From Pseudomonas sp. R-28-1W-6 (GTDB lineage: Bacteria > Pseudomonadota > Gammaproteobacteria > Pseudomonadales > Pseudomonadaceae), in NCBI RefSeq assembly GCF_009799925.1, contig NZ_WELK01000012.1, positions 1-64,000 on the forward strand: a stretch of 64,000 nt of DNA, read 5' to 3'. A program made the translations under genes and the position numbers. Under the pieces are notes generated by a model. The model was given only the letters and a program-made list of their open reading frames with translations. It made no database searches and was not told where the DNA came from. Shown here piece by piece: positions 54,670-62,453 of this stretch; position 1 is the first letter of the stretch, and each line of letters starts with the position of its first letter.

Positions 54670-55030
54670 GGTCGATCCCCGGTAGGGCGGGAGCCGCCGG
54701 GAGGCCGCTCATCCAGCCTGCACGCTAGCCCATGGGCGCCGCGCCGCACAAGGCCGGGTGCTTGTTGCGGTGGCCGTTATGCCCTGTTCTATGGCGGGGA
54801 AGGCCTGTGTCCCGGGTGGGCTGGCAGGCATCTTCCCTAGCAGGGGCCGCGTCGCCGGCAGTCTGTCGGGGCAGCGCCGGGCGCCCGGCTGTGGCACACT
54901 CTGCCGCTTACGACAGGCGTGCCGCCACCGGCGTTGCCGCTTTGCCGGTCCAAGAATTTCTGCCTGCGGCTGGCCGCGGGCTTATCGCACACCTGGTCGC
55001 CAGCGCGACCCAGACGAAGAGGAACGCCCC
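54670..55030. other. Divergent GC-rich intergenic region
   Basis: The 361 bases lie between the divergent LysE and FabH-like genes. It is GC-rich with several short inverted repeats but no supported gene. A ribosome site GAGGAACGCCCC precedes the GTG start of the FabH-like gene. Confidence 0.35.
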
Positions 55031-56152
55031 GTGCACAAAGCCGTAATCAGTGGCACTGGCCTGTATACCCCGGCTAACAGCATCTCCAACGAGGAGCTGG
55101 TGGCTTCCTTCAACAGCTACGTTCAGCAGTTCAACAGCGACAACGCCGCCGCCATCGAGCGGGGCGAGGTCGAGGCGCTGAGCGAGTCCAGCGTGGCCTT
55201 CATCGAGAAGGCATCAGGCATCAAGAGCCGCTACGTGATGGACAAGGCCGGCATTCTCGACCCGCAGCGCATGACCCCGCGCATCCCCGAGCGTTCCAAC
55301 GACGAGTGGGGCATTCTCTGCGAGATGGCCGTCGGTGCCGCCAAGCAAGCCCTGCAGCGCGCCGGCAAGACCGTCGCCGATATCGACGGGGTGATCGTCG
55401 CCTGCTCCAACCTGCAGCGCGCCTACCCGGCGGTGGCCATCGAAGTGCAGGCGGCCCTCGGCATCCAGGGCTGGGGCTACGACATGAACGTGGCCTGTTC
55501 CTCGGCCACCTTCGGCCTACAGGCGGCCAACAACGCCGTGCAGACCGGCCAGGCCCGCGCCGTGCTGATGGTCAACCCGGAGATCTGCACCGGCCACCTG
55601 AACTTCCGCGACCGCGACAGCCACTTCATCTTCGGCGATGCCGCCACCGCGGTGATCGTCGAGCGCGCCGACCTGGCGACCTCGGCGCAGCAGTGGGACA
55701 TCGTCGGCACCAAGCTGCTGACCCAGTTCTCCAACAACATCCGCAACAACTTCGGCTTCCTCAACCGCGCCGCGGAGGAGGGCATCGGTGCCCCGGACAA
55801 GCTGTTCGTCCAGGAAGGCCGCAAGGTGTTCCGCGATGTCTGCCCGATGGTTGCCGAGCTGATCGCCGCGCACCTGGCCGAGAACCAGCTGAATGTCGGC
55901 GACGTGAAGCGCTTCTGGCTGCACCAGGCCAACCTCAACATGAACCTGCTGATCGCCCGCAAGCTGCTCGGCCGCGACGCCGAAGAGGGCGAGGCGCCGG
56001 TGATCCTCGATACCTACGCCAACACCAGTTCGGCCGGCTCGGTGATCGCCTTCCACAAGCATCAGGACGACCTGCCCAGTGGCGCGCTGGGCGTGCTCAG
56101 CTCCTTCGGTGCCGGGTACTCCATCGGTAGCGTGATCCTGCGCAAGCATTGA
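55031..56152 (+). CDS. Beta-ketoacyl-ACP synthase III (FabH-like, PA3286 type)
   Basis: The 373-residue condensing enzyme has the thiolase-fold triad Cys156 ([10 protein letters not shown]), His298 ([11 protein letters not shown]) and Asn331 ([10 protein letters not shown]). It is longer than housekeeping FabH (about 320). Its ancestry matches the P. aeruginosa PA3286 enzyme, which, as I recall, shunts octanoyl-CoA from beta-oxidation into fatty-acid synthesis. The start is GTG 55031 with GAGGAAC upstream. The ECF sigma gene begins 44 bases after its stop, but in a different functional group; cotranscription is possible. Confidence 0.9.
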
Positions 56153-56165
56153 GTGCTGCAACCTG

Positions 56166-56190
56166 AGGTGCGCTGAGCGCACCCTACGGG
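56166..56190. repeat. Dispersed palindromic repeat, one-arm copy, abutting ECF start
   Basis: GGTGCGCTGAGCGCACCCTA followed by CGGG forms the repeat arm. Its last bases join the GGGAGG ribosome site of the ECF sigma gene at 56197. Confidence 0.75.
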
Positions 56191-56196
56191 AGGCCC

Positions 56197-56799
56197 ATGA
56201 GCGATGACGATCTGCTGCCGCGCCTGCTGGCAGGCGAGCAGCAGGCCTTTCGCGAACTGGTGGCGACCTACCAGGGCGCGATGCGCGCGGTGGCCTATGC
56301 CATAGTCGGCAGCCGACATGCCGACGAGGTGGTGCAGGACGCCTGGCTCGCCGTGGTGCGCAATCTGGACGGCTTCCAGCGCCGCTCCAGCCTGAAGACC
56401 TGGCTGCTGACCATCACCGCCAATACCGCCAAGAGCCGCCTCAAGCAGCGGCGTCGCGAGGTGTTGCTGGATGACCTGCCGGCGCCCCATGGCACGCTCG
56501 GCGGCGAGCGTTTCGCCGCCGACGGCCACTGGCTGACCCCGCCGCACGCCTGGCACGAGGATTCGCCCGAGGCCCTGCTGGGCGAGGACGAGCTGCGCCA
56601 GTGCCTGGAAAAGACCCTGGCCAGCCTCTCCGAGATGCAGGCCAGCGTGCTGCTGCTGCGCGAGCGCCAGGGCCTGGAGCTGGAGGAGATCTGTAATCTT
56701 CTCGAGCTTTCGCTCTCCAATGTGCGGGTGCTGCTGCACCGCGCCCGGCTCAAGGTGTTCGCCACCCTGGAGCATTTCGAGGAGACCGGCCAATGCTGA
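56197..56799 (+). CDS. ECF-type RNA polymerase sigma factor
   Basis: The 200-residue sigma factor has region 2 (about 20-88, with ADEVVQDAWLAVVRNLDGF and RSSLKTWLLTITANTAKSRL) and region 4 (about 133-190, LLLRERQGLELEEICNLL with an HTH). The stop overlaps the anti-sigma start by seven bases. It lies directly before the bufferin operon, whose promoter region has a TGTAAC / GGTCTA pair (57131-57158) that could be its target. The strong GGGAGG ribosome site sits at the edge of a dispersed repeat arm. Confidence 0.93.
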   Translation: MSDDDLLPRLLAGEQQAFRELVATYQGAMRAVAYAIVGSRHADEVVQDAWLAVVRNLDGFQRRSSLKTWLLTITANTAKSRLKQRRREVLLDDLPAPHGTLGGERFAADGHWLTPPHAWHEDSPEALLGEDELRQCLEKTLASLSEMQASVLLLRERQGLELEEICNLLELSLSNVRVLLHRARLKVFATLEHFEETGQC

Positions 56800-57023
56800 G
56801 CTGCAAGGAACTGGTAGCCCACTCCAGTGATTTTCTCGACGGCCAGCTGAGCCTGCGCGAGCGCCTCAGCGTGCGCGCGCACCTGGCCATGTGTCGCCAC
56901 TGCCGGCGCTTCATCCGCCAGATGAAGGTGACCCAGGGCGTGCTGCGCGCCTTGCCGGATGCGGCCATCCCCGAGCTGGATGCCCTGGCCGAGCGCCTGG
57001 CGCAACAGCGTCGCCAGCCCTGA
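56793..57023 (+). CDS. Zinc-finger anti-sigma factor (ZAS/zf-HC2)
   Basis: The 76-residue protein carries the ZAS motif HLAMCRHC (H-x3-C-x2-C, residues 30-37), which binds zinc and often senses thiol oxidation or metal. It overlaps the sigma gene by seven bases (ATGC start), the usual arrangement for a sigma/anti-sigma pair. It should sequester the ECF factor until released. It has no membrane segment, so it is probably cytoplasmic. Confidence 0.88.
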   Translation: MLSCKELVAHSSDFLDGQLSLRERLSVRAHLAMCRHCRRFIRQMKVTQGVLRALPDAAIPELDALAERLAQQRRQP

Positions 57024-57130
57024 GCGATTGGCCCCGGCGCGTTCTGCGGCCTGGGTGATGCACATGGCAGCGGCTTCAGCCGCGTCCACCCCGCGCGCCG
57101 GCCCGGCGCAGAAAAAACTTTTCGCCTGGC

Positions 57131-57158
57131 TGTAACGCCCCGTAGTCTGCTGGGTCTA
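57131..57158 (+). promoter_or_regulatory. Candidate ECF promoter of the bufferin operon
   Basis: TGTAAC (57131-57136) and GGTCTA (57153-57158) are 16 bases apart, the AAC-type -35 and GTC-type -10 layout of many ECF promoters. It lies 54 bases upstream of bufA. The assignment is by eye. Confidence 0.55.
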
Positions 57159-57212
57159 GTGTTGCGAGGGGGCCATGCCGGCCTCCGCAATCACCCCCAC
57201 CGGAGAGACTCC

Positions 57213-57524
57213 ATGAAACAGCTGAATTCCGTTGTCGCCACCCTGGGCGCCGCCCTGCTGAGCACCGCCGCGTTCACCGCCCAGGCGGCCGGCAACCCGT
57301 TCGCCGCCGAGGAGCTGAGCAGCGGCTACAGCCTGGCGGCCCAGGAGAAGGCTAACGAAGGTTCCTGCGGCGAAGGCAAGTGTGGTGGCGAGATGAAGGC
57401 CGCCGACGGCAGCAAGGCCGGCGAAGGCAAATGCGGTGGCGAGAAAGCCGCCATGGAAGGCAGCTGTGGCGAGGAAGGCAAGATGGCCAAGGAAGGCAGC
57501 TGCGGCGCGACGAAGGCCGAGTAA
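57213..57524 (+). CDS. bufA: Bufferin-type RiPP precursor, Cys-rich (BufA/HvfA-like)
   Basis: The 103-residue precursor starts at 57213. It has a Sec signal (about residues 1-26, ending AQAAG) and a low-complexity mature part of Gly, Glu, Lys and Ala. The mature part holds five cysteines, each in EG[S/K]CG: Cys52, Cys57, Cys74, Cys85 and Cys97. In bufferins and HvfA, MNIO enzymes modify such cysteines (for example to thiooxazoles or oxazolone/thioamide) and the secreted peptide binds copper. The DUF692 gene follows 12 bases downstream, a canonical pair. The function is inferred from the family; the chemistry is not readable from the sequence. Confidence 0.9.
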   Translation: MKQLNSVVATLGAALLSTAAFTAQAAGNPFAAEELSSGYSLAAQEKANEGSCGEGKCGGEMKAADGSKAGEGKCGGEKAAMEGSCGEEGKMAKEGSCGATKAE

Positions 57525-57536
57525 GGAACGGCGCAC

Positions 57537-58382
57537 ATGACCTCGCAGCCTTTCGTCAGCGGCGCCGGCCTCGGCCTGCGCCGCGGCCTGCTCCCGGCGC
57601 TGCTCGACAGCGCCGAGGGGCAGGTGGATTTCCTCGAACTCGCCCCGGAAAACTGGATCGGCGTGGGCGGGCGCTTCGCCCGCCAGCTGCGCAGCCTGAG
57701 CGAGCGCCTGCCGCTGCTCTGCCATGGTCTGTCGCTCAACCTCGGTGGCTTCGCGCCGCTCGATTTCGAGCTGCTCGCGGCCATCAAGGCCTTTCTCGAC
57801 GAGCACGGCATCCGTGGTTACAGCGAGCACCTGTCGGCCTGTGCCGACGATGGCCAGCTGTACGACCTGATGCCGCTGCCGTTCAGCGACGAGTCGGTGC
57901 GCCGCGTCGCCGCGCGTATCCGCACGGTGCAGGAGGTGCTGCAGCGGCCGCTGATCATCGAGAACGTCTCGGCCTATGCGCGCCTGCCCGGCGAGCTGGA
58001 CGAGGCCACCTTCATTCGCGCGGTGCTGGCGGAGGCCGACTGCCGGCTGCTGCTGGACATCAACAACGTCTACGTCAACGCGAGCAATTTCAGTTTCGAC
58101 CCGCGCGCCTACATCGACGCCATGCCCGGCGAACGCATCGCCTACCTGCACCTGGCCGGGCATTCCGACGAGGCCGCCGGCCTGAAGATCGACACCCACG
58201 GCGCGCCGGTGTGCGACCCGGTGTGGGCTCTGCTGGAACATGCCTACGCCCGCCACGGCGTGCGTCCGACCCTGCTCGAGCGTGATTTCAACTTCCCGCC
58301 GCTGGCCGAGCTGTATGCCGAGGTGGCGCAGATCCGCGCCCTGCAGCAGCTGGCCGACAGGCGCCGGGAGTCGGCGGCATGA
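57537..58382 (+). CDS. bufB: DUF692 multinuclear non-heme iron oxidase (MNIO), bufferin-modifying enzyme
   Basis: The 281-residue TIM-barrel enzyme has the MNIO iron-ligand pattern intact: His63 (CHGLSLNLG), Glu97-His98 (SEHLS), Glu142-Asn143 (IENVSAY), Asp174-Asn177 (DINNVYVN), His205 and His209 (LHLAGH), His221-Asp227 (HGAPVCD) and Glu248 (LERDFNFP). It should modify cysteines of the BufA precursor in the cytoplasm before export. AAGGAA precedes the start at 57537. The stop overlaps bufC by four bases. Confidence 0.92.
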   Translation: MTSQPFVSGAGLGLRRGLLPALLDSAEGQVDFLELAPENWIGVGGRFARQLRSLSERLPLLCHGLSLNLGGFAPLDFELLAAIKAFLDEHGIRGYSEHLSACADDGQLYDLMPLPFSDESVRRVAARIRTVQEVLQRPLIIENVSAYARLPGELDEATFIRAVLAEADCRLLLDINNVYVNASNFSFDPRAYIDAMPGERIAYLHLAGHSDEAAGLKIDTHGAPVCDPVWALLEHAYARHGVRPTLLERDFNFPPLAELYAEVAQIRALQQLADRRRESAA

Positions 58383-59074
58383 ACGCCGTGCAGGCCCAGG
58401 CGGCCTTCGCCGCCCGCATCCGCCAGCCCACGGCGCAGGCGCTGCTGCCGGGCATCCCCGGCGAGCGCATGGCGGTGTACGAGGCGCTGTTCTTCAACAA
58501 CATCGAGAGCTTCCTGTGCAGCGGTTTCCCGGTGCTGCGCCGGCTGTTCGAGGATGCGCGCTGGCAGCGCCTGGTGCGCAGCTTCATCGCCGGGCACCGC
58601 TGCCGCACGCCATACTTTCTGCAGATCGGCGAGGAGTTCATCGGCTGGCTGCAGCAGGGCTTCGTCGCCGAGGCGGATGATCCACCGTTCCTCCTCGAAC
58701 TGGCGCACTACGAGCGGGTCGAGCTGGCCCTGGATGTGGCCTGCGCGGAGCTGCCCGCGCACGGCTGGTCGCCCCTGGCCTGGCCGCTGGCCTATGTCTG
58801 GCCGGTGCAGCGGCTGAGCGCCGAATACCGCCCGGCGCAGCCGCCGGCCGAGCCGACCTGCCTGCTGGCCTGGCGTGATCGCGCGGACAGGGTGCGTTTC
58901 CAGCAGCTGGCGCCGTTCGCCTACCGCCTGGCCCTGCGCCTGCAGGCCGGCGAGGACAGCGCCGCGGCGCTGGCGGCCCTGGCCGAGGAGAGCGGCCTGG
59001 TCGCCGACGCGAGCTATTTCAACCATGCCCGTGCGCTGCTGGAAGACTGGCGGCGCCAGGACATTCTCTGCTAG
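58379..59074 (+). CDS. bufC: DUF2063 bufferin partner protein
   Basis: The 231-residue protein has the DUF2063 N-terminal domain (RMAVYEALFFNNIESFLCSGFP). A C-terminal region with RLALRLQAGEDSAAALAALAEE could contact the precursor. In related systems it forms a complex with the MNIO and acts as the precursor-recognition subunit. It starts in an ATGA overlap with bufB. No membrane segment is visible. Confidence 0.9.
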   Translation: MNAVQAQAAFAARIRQPTAQALLPGIPGERMAVYEALFFNNIESFLCSGFPVLRRLFEDARWQRLVRSFIAGHRCRTPYFLQIGEEFIGWLQQGFVAEADDPPFLLELAHYERVELALDVACAELPAHGWSPLAWPLAYVWPVQRLSAEYRPAQPPAEPTCLLAWRDRADRVRFQQLAPFAYRLALRLQAGEDSAAALAALAEESGLVADASYFNHARALLEDWRRQDILC

Positions 59075-59085
59075 CGGAGCTGCCC

Positions 59086-59682
59086 ATGCTGACCCTGCTC
59101 AATCGCCTCCAGGATGCCCTGGACGCCACGCGTCGCCTCGATTTTCTCGGCCCGTTGCTGCTGCGCCTGTACCTGGTGCCGATCTTCTGGATGGCCGGCA
59201 CGCACAAGCTGGCCGACATGCCCGCGACCATCGCCTGGTTCGGCAACCCGGACTGGGGCCTGGGCCTGCCGTTCCCCGCGCTGCTGGCCTGGCTGGCGGC
59301 GCTGACCGAGACGGGTGGGGCGCTGCTGTTGCTGTTCGGCCTGGCCCTGCGCTGGATCAGCATCCCGCTGCTGGTGACCATGCTGGTGGCGATCGCCAGC
59401 GTGCACTGGCCGTTCGGCTGGCAGGCGATCGCCGATCCGTCCGCGCCCTTCGCCAACGAACGGGTGCTGGCCTCGGTGGAGAAGCTCGAACGGGCCCGCA
59501 CCCTGCTCAAGGCGCACGGCAATTACGACTGGCTGACCAGCAGCGGCAAGCTGGTGGTGCTGAACAACGGCATCGAGTTCGCCACCACCTACCTGGTGAT
59601 GCTGGTCGCGCTGTTCTTCACCGGGGCCGGACGCTGGGTCAGCCTGGACTACTGGTTGGCGCGGCGCTGGCGCCGCCCCTGA
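59086..59682 (+). CDS. DoxX family membrane protein of the bufferin operon
   Basis: The 198-residue protein has four to five predicted helices (about 22-40, 65-84, 88-110 and 155-178). Its DoxX-family N-terminus reads RLYLVPIFWMAGTHKLADM. In bufferin/Hvf operons a DoxX protein often closes the set (BufD/HvfD-like), but its role is unresolved; it may handle quinone or thiol redox in the inner membrane. It starts 11 bases after bufC. The Pho-controlled porin follows. Confidence 0.85.
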   Translation: MLTLLNRLQDALDATRRLDFLGPLLLRLYLVPIFWMAGTHKLADMPATIAWFGNPDWGLGLPFPALLAWLAALTETGGALLLLFGLALRWISIPLLVTMLVAIASVHWPFGWQAIADPSAPFANERVLASVEKLERARTLLKAHGNYDWLTSSGKLVVLNNGIEFATTYLVMLVALFFTGAGRWVSLDYWLARRWRRP

Positions 59683-59801
59683 GCCGAAATGACCCGGGTT
59701 TTTCCCGCCCGCGGCCGGCTCGCCGGCCCGGCGCACAGCGTCGGCCGGGCGCCGGGCAGGGCGCCGAGTTCACTTATTAGAAAAAGAAGTAAAAAGTTCC
59801 G

Positions 59802-59819
59802 CTGTCATCGAACTTTCAT
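59802..59819 (+). promoter_or_regulatory. Pho box upstream of the phosphate porin
   Basis: CTGTCAT-CGAA-CTTTCAT matches the PhoB repeat pair CTGTCAT-N4-CTGTCAT in 13 of 14 repeat positions. It lies 105 bases before the porin start, so the porin is expected to be induced on phosphate starvation. Confidence 0.85.
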
Positions 59820-59924
59820 ATATCAGAAACCGGTCTGAAATAACCCCCCGCCAAGATTCCCCTCCAGCACCAAGGGCAGTTGCCCGCGTGTTTTCAACGC
59901 AAAAGACCAATAGGGGAATTTTCG

Positions 59925-61241
59925 ATGATCCGTAAGCACTTCGCCGGTTTCGTAACCAGCGCCCTGGCTCTGGCCGTTTCCGCCCAGGCTTTCGCCGGCA
60001 CCGTGACCACTGACGGTACCGACATCGTCATCAAGACCAAGAGCGGTCTGGAAGTCGCCACCACCGACAAACAATACAGCTTCAAGCTGGGTGGCCGTCT
60101 GCAGGCCGACTTCGATCAGTTCGACGGTTTCTATACCAAGAACAACGACGCGGGCAACGAAGCCTATTTCCGTCGCGCTCAGCTGGAACTGGGCGGCAAC
60201 TACAAGGACTGGCGCTACCAGATCAACTACGACTTCGCCGACAAGTCGGGTTCGAGCCAGAAGTTCGACGAAGCGACCATCACCTACACCGGCTTCTCGC
60301 CGATCAACATCAAGATCGGTCGTTTCGATCCCGACTACAGCCTGGAAAAAGCCACCAGCTCCAAGTGGGTCACCGCCATCGAGCGCTCCTCGGTACTGGA
60401 CCTGGCCTCCTGGACCACCGACCACGAAGACGGCATGGGCGTGCAGGTCAACGGCACCTACGGCGGCATGTTCTACGGTTCGACCAGCGTCCAGCAGCAG
60501 GACAAGGGCGACTACCTGGAAGACAGCGACGGCAAGGACGTCAACAGCTTCTTCGCCCGTGGCGTGATCGCCCCGATCGTCAGCGAAACCCAGGTGCTGC
60601 ATTTCGGTCTGGACTACGCGACCCGTACCTACGGTGGCGCCAAGGCTTATGACGGCAAGATCGATACCCGTCTGGGCGTGCGTGGCGTCGACCAGGGCGG
60701 TTCGAGCAACACCGGCAAGGTGCTGCTGGCCGGTGCCGATGGCAACACCGCTGGCTTCGACGACGACAGCGTGGTCGGCCTGGAATTCGCCTACATGTAC
60801 GGCCCGTTCTCGGTGCAGAGCGAATACCTCAAGCGTGACCTGACCGGCGCCGATGACAATGGCGATCGCGAAGCCACCGGCTACAACGCCCAGCTCGCCT
60901 ACACCCTGACCGGCGAATCGCGCGTGTACAAACTCGACGGCGCCAAGTTCGACACCATCAAGCCGGCTGACAAGCAGTACGGTGCCTGGGAAGTGTTCTA
61001 CCGCTTCGACAACCTGACCGTCGAGGATGACGACCAGAACCTGGGCGTGGCTGGTATCGACGAAACCACCGCCGACGTCCACACCCTGGGTGTGAACTGG
61101 TACGCCAACGAAGCCGTCAAGCTGTCGCTGAACTACCTGATGACCAAGTCGGATGCCGAAACCGTTGCCGTGCAGAAGCGTGGCGAGCATGACGACGACG
61201 ATGGCCAGGCCATCTCCCTGCGTGCCCAGTACGTGTTCTAA
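59925..61241 (+). CDS. oprO: Phosphate/pyrophosphate-selective porin (OprO/OprP family)
   Basis: The 438-residue trimeric outer-membrane porin has a 24-25-residue signal peptide (ending AQAFAG) and the family N-terminus GTVTTDGTDIVIKTKSGLE. It ends in the beta-barrel C-terminal QYVF with terminal Phe. By alignment with remembered OprP (Tyr62, Tyr114) and OprO (Phe62, Asp114), the selectivity positions are Gln62 (in FRRAQLELGG) and Asp114 (in GRFDPDYSLEKA). Asp114 is OprO-like; Gln62 is unusual. The start at 59925 and the Pho box upstream agree with phosphate-starvation expression. Only one copy is present, unlike the P. aeruginosa tandem. Confidence 0.85.
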   Translation: MIRKHFAGFVTSALALAVSAQAFAGTVTTDGTDIVIKTKSGLEVATTDKQYSFKLGGRLQADFDQFDGFYTKNNDAGNEAYFRRAQLELGGNYKDWRYQINYDFADKSGSSQKFDEATITYTGFSPINIKIGRFDPDYSLEKATSSKWVTAIERSSVLDLASWTTDHEDGMGVQVNGTYGGMFYGSTSVQQQDKGDYLEDSDGKDVNSFFARGVIAPIVSETQVLHFGLDYATRTYGGAKAYDGKIDTRLGVRGVDQGGSSNTGKVLLAGADGNTAGFDDDSVVGLEFAYMYGPFSVQSEYLKRDLTGADDNGDREATGYNAQLAYTLTGESRVYKLDGAKFDTIKPADKQYGAWEVFYRFDNLTVEDDDQNLGVAGIDETTADVHTLGVNWYANEAVKLSLNYLMTKSDAETVAVQKRGEHDDDDGQAISLRAQYVF

Positions 61242-61271
61242 GTCAGACCCCATCATCTGACTGCTCCTCTG

Positions 61272-61299
61272 AGCCCCGCTATTGGCGGGGCTTTTTTTC
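61272..61299 (+). terminator. Rho-independent terminator of the porin gene
   Basis: AGCCCCGC-TATT-GGCGGGGCT is followed by a T-run (CTTTTTTT), a strong intrinsic terminator 31 bases after the porin stop. Confidence 0.95.
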
Positions 61300-61325
61300 G
61301 CCCCCAGGAAAAGGGACACTGCGGC

Positions 61326-62453
61326 ATGCCCGTACAGACCCTCGATTCGATCCGCCAGATCACCGCCGCCGACTGGGACGCGCTGCTGCCCGGCGCCGCC
61401 CAGCCCTTCCTGCGCCATGCCTTTCTCGCCTGCCTGGAGGACAGCGGCAGCGCCGTGGCCGCCACCGGCTGGCAGCCCAGCCATCGCCTCTGGCGTGACG
61501 CGCGGGGCGAGCTGCGCGCCATTCTGCCGGCCTGGATCAAGAGCCACTCGCGCGGCGAGTACGTGTTCGACTGGGGTTGGGCCGAGGCCTGCCAGCGTGC
61601 CGGCATCGCCTACTACCCCAAGTTGCTGACGGCAGTGCCGTTCTCGCCGGTGGTCGGTCCGCGCCTGCTCGGCGCCCCGGCGGCCTGTGCGCAACTGCTG
61701 GGCGAGGTGAGCGCCACGCTGGGGGAGCAGGGCCTGTCGAGCTGGCACCTGAACTTCAACGAGCCGGCCGAGGCGGCGCTGCTGGCCCGCCAGCCGGGCT
61801 GGCTGCAGCGCAGCGGTTGCCAGTTCCACTGGTTCAACCGCGGCTACCGCGACTTCCAGGATTTTCTCGACGGCTTCGCCTCGCGCAAGCGCAAGCAGGT
61901 GCGCAAGGAGCGCGAGCTGGTGGCCGGGCAGGGCCTGGAGTTCGTCTGGCTGGCGGGGCATGAGCTGAGCGAGGCGCAGTGGGACTTCGTCTATCGCTGC
62001 TACGCCAACACCTATCGGCTGCGCGGCCAGGCGCCGTATCTAACCCGCGAATTCTTCAGCCTGCTGGCCGAGCGCATGCCCGAGGCCATCCGCGTCAACC
62101 TGGTGCGCCAGGGTGCGCGGCCGGTGGCCATGGCCTTCCTGCTGAGCGCTGGCGACTCGCTGTACGGGCGCTACTGGGGCTGTTTGCAGGACTTCGCCAA
62201 CCTGCACTTCGAGACCTGTTTCTACCAGGGCATCGAGCAGGCGATTGCCGGCGGGCTGCAGCGCTTCGACGCCGGGGCGCAGGGGGAGCACAAGCTGGTG
62301 CGCGGCTTCGAGCCGGTGCTGACGCAGTCCTGGCATTACCTGGAGCATGCCGGCCTGCGCGCGGCGGTGGCGAGTTTCCTGCGCGAGGAACACGAGCAGG
62401 TGCTGCGCTACCGCGAGCAGGCGCTGGCGGCCTTGCCCTACCGGCGAGGCTGA
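61326..62453 (+). CDS. DUF482/FemAB-like acyltransferase family protein (GNAT superfamily)
   Basis: The 375-residue protein matches the peptidogalycan-biosynthesis-type DUF482 family. It has an N-terminal PFLRHAFLACLEDSGSA block, RKQVRKERELV with basic residues, and a GDSLYGRYWGCLQ segment. The C-terminal EHKLVRGFEPVLTQSWH is also conserved. The fold resembles tandem GNAT domains of FemA/FemB. The substrate is unknown. It is monocistronic between a terminator and a two-arm repeat. Confidence 0.87.
   Translation: MPVQTLDSIRQITAADWDALLPGAAQPFLRHAFLACLEDSGSAVAATGWQPSHRLWRDARGELRAILPAWIKSHSRGEYVFDWGWAEACQRAGIAYYPKLLTAVPFSPVVGPRLLGAPAACAQLLGEVSATLGEQGLSSWHLNFNEPAEAALLARQPGWLQRSGCQFHWFNRGYRDFQDFLDGFASRKRKQVRKERELVAGQGLEFVWLAGHELSEAQWDFVYRCYANTYRLRGQAPYLTREFFSLLAERMPEAIRVNLVRQGARPVAMAFLLSAGDSLYGRYWGCLQDFANLHFETCFYQGIEQAIAGGLQRFDAGAQGEHKLVRGFEPVLTQSWHYLEHAGLRAAVASFLREEHEQVLRYREQALAALPYRRG

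Follow-up and report, generated by a model that had tools for sequence, protein, structure and literature searches.

A Hvf/EGKCG captophorin operon with a predicted ECF-type promoter beside an ECF sigma/ZAS anti-sigma pair in Pseudomonas sp. R-28-1W-6

The stretch of DNA analyzed here (64,000 nucleotides, positions 1 to 64,000 of contig NZ_WELK01000012.1, assembly GCF_009799925.1, of Pseudomonas sp. R-28-1W-6; hereafter the window) contains genes for an extracytoplasmic function (ECF) sigma factor and a zinc-binding anti-sigma (ZAS) factor, followed by hvfABCX, four genes for a cysteine-rich precursor peptide (HvfA), a multinuclear non-heme iron-dependent oxidative enzyme (MNIO; HvfB), a DUF2063 protein (HvfC) and a DoxX protein (HvfX) (Table 1). 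An earlier note, made from the sequence alone, had described these six genes, and its coordinates and spacings were borne out: the ECF and ZAS genes overlap by 7 bases, hvfA and hvfB are separated by 12 bases, hvfB and hvfC share an ATGA overlap and hvfC and hvfX are 11 bases apart. The tight run in one direction that it described holds from hvfA to hvfX, but a gap of 189 bases between the ZAS gene and hvfA (57024-57212) had been left unmentioned. Because this gap contains the probable operon promoter, the locus is read as two transcription blocks and not as one evenly packed run. Family calls were made with Pfam (PF) and curated NF profile models by comparing bit scores to the curated cut-offs. 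Five of the six proteins scored far above these, which confirmed the MNIO, DUF2063 and DoxX assignments, and the peptide passed a domain model but not the full-length HvfA model. No Rfam families were identified at 55000-61500.

Table 1. Features of the hvf locus and its neighbors in the window; scores are given with the curated cut-off.
Feature	Coordinates	Strand	Evidence
FabH-like beta-ketoacyl-ACP synthase III, neighbor outside the system	55031..56152	+	NF005703 676.8 bits vs 304; synteny
ECF sigma factor	56197..56799	+	PF04542 53.5 bits vs 24; PF08281 40.7 vs 25.7
ZAS-type anti-sigma factor (zf-HC2, 76 aa)	56793..57023	+	PF13490 42.4 bits vs 22.2; NF052368 62.9 vs 50
A/T tract 5' of promoter, possible UP element (putative function)	57112..57122	+	A/T-rich in aligned loci
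Predicted ECF-type promoter: TGTAAC (57131-57136), 16 bases, GGTCTA (57153-57158)	57131..57158	+	kept in 29/29 loci
Possible leader hairpin at predicted mRNA 5' end, lead only	57164..57188	+	negative folding z
hvfA, precursor peptide, 103 aa	57213..57524	+	NF050137.2 33.7 bits vs 19.5; NF050188.1 33.9 vs 95 (below cut-off)
hvfB, MNIO (DUF692) peptide maturase	57537..58382	+	PF05114 329.7 bits vs 25; NF003818 401.9 vs 360
hvfC, DUF2063 / PME1 partner protein	58379..59074	+	NF050145 266.7 bits vs 142; PF09836, PF22106 above cut-off
hvfX, DoxX-family membrane protein	59086..59682	+	NF050144 227.7 bits vs 80; PF07681 73.9 vs 23.6
PhoB-box-like direct repeat 5' of porin gene, outside the system	59802..59819	+	sole match in window; 0/100 shuffles
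OprO/OprP-like porin, neighbor outside the system	59925..61241	+	PF07396 272.3 bits vs 20.9

The operon had been called a bufferin-type MNIO operon for a ribosomally synthesized and post-translationally modified peptide (RiPP). That this pseudomonad has an MNIO RiPP operon from the bufferin/Hvf superfamily holds, but the operon is not a bufferin operon proper. HvfA carries a Sec-type signal, as judged by eye, and five cysteines in its mature part, which were read from the sequence as two EGKCG and three EGSCG motifs. No Pfam family matched HvfA at E 0.01, and thus no DUF2282, and the BufB model NF050167.1 scored 259.1 bits on the MNIO enzyme, below its cut-off of 310. Because of these two results, and judged by sequence, the operon belongs to the Hvf/EGKCG captophorins (oxazolin-like) and not to the bufferins in the strict sense; an exported EGKCG-type precursor, an HvfB-type MNIO with its iron ligands, and the DUF2063/PME1 and DoxX proteins were all found. 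Buf2 precursors (Buf_6/12Cys) are described with 6 or 12 cysteines (PMC12452194), and the window peptide is set apart from these by description only, having five in EGKCG/EGSCG motifs. The captophorin paper PMC13097082 does not use the word EGSCG in its main text.

The earlier note had let its reading depend on conservation of the MNIO iron ligands. H63, H98, E142, D174, N177, H205, D219, H221 and E248 were identical in all rows of an alignment of 84 MNIO sequences, in which one genome is present twice (L092/L108). PDB 3bww is the nearest solved structure to HvfB (E 2.8e-74), and in a hand count along this alignment all of these residues except H63, which falls outside it, coincide with the iron ligands reported for VcMbnB, H221 corresponding to a further Fe3 residue (PMC8888699). 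In the ZAS protein, the zinc ligand positions C4, H30, C34 and C37 (Cys ... His-x3-Cys-x2-Cys) were kept in 42/42 aligned sequences and are those given for meningococcal MseR (PMC2893595). This motif, together with the PF13490 match, places the protein in the ZAS class of the MseR/HrsE/RsrA kind. Both the 7-base overlap and the gene order FabH-ECF-ZAS recurred in 20/20 same-genus loci compared.

Upstream of hvfA, a predicted promoter with the consensus TGTAA[C/T]-N16-[C/G/A][G/C]TC[T/C/A]A was present in 29/29 Pseudomonas/Halopseudomonas loci (the window, L033, L094-L119 and L126), which had been picked as close hvf relatives and from whose own alignment the motif was read. The first element is TGTAAC in 27 loci and TGTAAT in two (L099 and L101), and the second is CGTCTA (15), CGTCCA (8), GGTCTA (3) or, once each, ACTCTA, AGTCTA and CGTCAA. 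The promoter lies 73 to 87 bases 5' of the hvfA start (82 in the window; in L099 the aligned position has no start codon). Except for the A/T tract, the region 5' of it is little conserved across loci. Two checks are independent of how the motif was derived: it matched once in the window and in 0/100 shuffles, and only one of 53 other hvf loci reached the lowest score of the 29. This locus (L168, Zhongshania aliphaticivorans) lies outside the Pseudomonas group and has its strong match, with a matrix score of 21.3, ∼0.24 kb 5' of an hvfA-like gene. In the literature searched, as far as its text was available, no published report of this promoter was found.

The distance between hvfA and the sigma factor gene differs among the 29 loci. 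ECF-ZAS lies within ∼0.6 kb of hvfA in 14 loci and at 2.4-4.4 kb in four (L033, L104, L105 and L106); in the remaining 11 no ECF gene was found within 6 kb upstream (∼2.9 kb only for L107) and the promoter is kept. All 11 unlinked genomes encode the ECF factor elsewhere at 84-92% identity, in P. guryensis seemingly ∼30 kb away. Among 149 same-genus genomes a close hvfC (E 1e-60 or better) was present in 12 and the ECF factor in 91, and 12/12 hvfC genomes have it (hypergeometric p 0.002, not corrected for relatedness). The identities of ECF and HvfB across 28 genomes are correlated as well (r 0.86, with 0/2000 permutations as high; r 0.89 in the 11 unlinked genomes), which is expected from joint vertical descent and is no proof of function. 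From the promoter in 29/29 loci and the presence of the ECF gene in 11/11 unlinked and 12/12 hvfC genomes, it follows that the ECF factor very probably drives hvf transcription. The claim that an ECF factor switches on the peptide operon is thereby backed. The description of the pair as the operon's own was too strong, as a close hvfC is missing from 79/91 same-genus genomes with the ECF factor. Of 53 loci from beyond the Pseudomonas group, one (L171) gave matches to both ECF and ZAS beside hvf.

Other observations touch on the promoter and its surroundings. In L033 (G012), whose second element is CGTCAA, an open reading frame of 326 aa, which we take to be transposase-like, lies inside the ∼2.4 kb ZAS-hvfA interval and the promoter is still kept. 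The genome of the window contains a second MNIO locus (C8; L062 2700-4800, also L001), of which HvfB is 60% and HvfC ∼40% identical and the precursor has five EGKCG motifs and then, on visual inspection, apparently two EF-hands. The ECF promoter was not found at this second locus (best matrix score 11.7 compared to 17.5 for the lowest true site). The leader downstream of the window promoter may form a hairpin: the folding z was below 0 in 26/26 distinct leaders (the window and 25 others; mean -2.47). RNAalifold, however, predicted no pairs in the aligned leaders, and the named pairs were formed in 69.9% compared to 67.7% in shuffles, with 91/500 shuffles as high, so the hairpin is a possible lead only.

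The operon is of a known kind, since ECF-ZAS beside an EGKCG cluster is already described for Neisseria (PMC3240639, PMC2893595). NMB2140-NMB2145 likewise cluster sigma factor (sigma-E), ZAS (MseR) and hvf-type genes (gonophorin in N. gonorrhoeae), the ZAS ligands are at identical positions, and the promoter has a -10 element CGTCTAAH and an A/T-rich upstream element (PMC3240639, PMC2893595). There the genes form one self-activated operon with a spacer of 12-13 (PMC2893595), whereas the window promoter has TGTAAC and a spacer of 16 and is located in the gap that separates the ZAS gene from hvfA. In Haemophilus influenzae, hvfABCX (oxazolin) consists of biosynthetic genes from the four families seen here and is paired with RpoE2/HrsE; all four of these hvf (doxX operon) genes are RpoE2-dependent under hypochlorous acid (HOCl), and the anti-sigma factor is a small cytoplasmic ZAS protein of 67 aa (PMC7907618). 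Unlike in the window, the H. influenzae sigma/anti-sigma genes adjoin msrAB, apart from hvf, and its HvfA has six cysteines in AEGKCGEGKCG motifs (PMC13419390), compared to five here, three of them in EGSCG. Bufferins 1 and 2 share MNIO, DUF2063 and DoxX genes and an exported cysteine peptide; Buf1 differs by its DUF2282 precursor, compared to EGKCG repeats and a ZAS protein in the window. According to Antoine et al. (PMC12452194), sigma/NrsF genes occur in Buf1 and not in Buf2 clusters, and EGKCG clusters consist mostly of core genes.

Taken together, we consider it probable that this is a Hvf/EGKCG operon with one ECF promoter, whose ECF factor is held by the ZAS protein and freed by oxidation or zinc loss, and whose product binds copper(I). 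This analysis contributes the gene families, the conserved iron and ZAS ligands, the promoter conservation and the co-occurrence of ECF and hvf. Sigma release, peptide chemistry and copper binding are transferred from relatives, and both the nature of the signal and the function of HvfX are proposals. Transcription of hvfABCX would start at the single ECF promoter, and by analogy the ZAS protein would keep the ECF factor inactive until its Cys/His zinc site is oxidized or zinc-depleted, after which the freed ECF factor would transcribe hvfABCX. HvfC may then present HvfA to HvfB, which would oxidize its cysteines to 5-thiooxazoles, a modification that, like copper binding, is known from work on HvfBC and FonBC (PMC13419390, PMC13097082). 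The modified peptide would be exported via Sec to the periplasm, bind copper(I) and limit copper damage during envelope oxidation.

Several results weigh against parts of this reading. No site was found by a matrix derived from the 29 hvfA sites before the ECF gene of the window or of any hvf-linked locus among 44 ECF loci scanned, so that Neisseria-like self-activation is not predicted here. Two of the 44 loci (L037 and L039), from genomes without a close hvfC, have the promoter motif 62-63 bases before the ECF gene, which by sequence suggests self-activation in those genomes. The 79 ECF genomes without a close hvfC indicate that the factor has further work, of which the targets were not found: a scan of 18 hvf-less ECF genomes with the strict motif returned 4 sites compared to 33 for a reversed-pattern control, i.e., no enrichment. 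This negative is no proof of absence, since known sites with CGTCCA and CGTCAA, in G008 and G012, escape the strict pattern. The orthology of P. aeruginosa PA3285-PA3281 to the window operon, used below, is probable and is assumed from gene order. In addition, meningococcal sigma-E expression is reported to be unchanged by oxidative stimuli (PMC2893595).

With these points in mind, it has to be asked what else the ECF-ZAS pair might do. The pair could serve other genes and hvf, under another regulator, could merely be adjacent, and besides the many hvf-less ECF genomes this agrees with the observation that hvf was present in the examined stretch of only one of the 20 same-genus FabH-ECF-ZAS loci, and with the lower expression of PA3282 and PA3283 when mexT is mutated in P. 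aeruginosa (PMC12607905). An accident of neighborhood would, however, leave unexplained why the promoter is kept in 11 loci without a nearby ECF gene and why every hvf genome examined retains the factor. Moreover, the adjacency extends to Halopseudomonas, and a simple scan of 56100-60000 yielded no sigma-70-like promoter (nor a terminator); we therefore regard such an accident as quite improbable. Slightly less probable still is a broader regulon for oxidative repair under ECF-ZAS, to which msrB would belong, as it does in Neisseria and Haemophilus, and of which hvf would be just one part. Besides the hvfA site, the 4.27-Mb genome has a single exact match to the motif, 108 bases 5' of a gene presumed, from its sequence, to be msrB-like, but the reversed-pattern control matches 6 times in the same genome. 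The site was conserved in just 2/14 ECF-positive and 1/9 ECF-negative genomes, and the msrB branch was rejected.

A copper switch, as in the reading of the earlier note, would mean that copper stress itself activates the ECF factor, which then makes a copper buffer. The product class binds copper, pathways of this sort are frequently switched on by copper or gold (PMC13097082), and the ZAS thiols could be oxidized by copper, so that copper may act indirectly. On the other hand, the layout of the ZAS protein is that of a zinc/thiol regulator, and the characterized sigma/ZAS relatives respond to hypochlorite, a response not shown for copper in the available text (PMC7907618). Nothing was found in support of copper as the inducing signal, and copper-regulator sites were not searched for. 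In P. aeruginosa, NaOCl and N-acetylglucosamine are conditions in which the RiPP/DUF692 set is expressed (PMC9023270), and no statement on a copper response of this set was found in the literature searched, as far as available. Mutation of znuA raised PA3282-PA3284 by 4.1- to 5.0-fold, and no Zur site is listed for these genes (PMC4542158), which fits zinc loss from the ZAS protein. A copper switch is thus unlikely, and by analogy with these relatives we favor a switch that senses oxidant or zinc loss, with a product that binds copper.

Several features lie outside the system. The OprO/OprP-like porin gene has its own PhoB-like box, defined by a consensus that we assume to be valid. An OprO-like porin gene directly follows ZAS in 5/20 same-genus loci. 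PvdS-type control, for which a promoter pattern was likewise assumed, is not indicated, as the pattern matched nowhere in the window, where 0.14 matches were expected.

Compared with the systems known before, this analysis adds the promoter map, an hvf module that is mobile yet wired, and the presence of a ZAS gene beside this ECF gene. PA3285, the probable relative in P. aeruginosa, is placed in ECF293 and listed as having no anti-sigma factor (PMC8999054), unlike the ECF gene here, which a ZAS gene overlaps in 20/20 relatives. Captophorins are described as being among the most numerous RiPP classes (PMC13097082). In pseudomonads, the conserved 28-base promoter together with the ZAS protein offers a direct handle on whether copper, oxidant or zinc stress is the purpose of the product, and the unlinked hvf loci are natural test cases for regulation by promoter alone. 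Tentatively, and with somewhat less than even confidence, we suggest that the ECF-ZAS pair is a general zinc/thiol-sensing switch that most of the genus retains in the absence of hvf, that hvf is an optional, movable one-promoter module wired to it by the promoter alone, and that the founding member of the group has an overlooked ZAS partner. Captophorin synthesis in pseudomonads might then be a response to envelope oxidation or zinc loss and not to copper.

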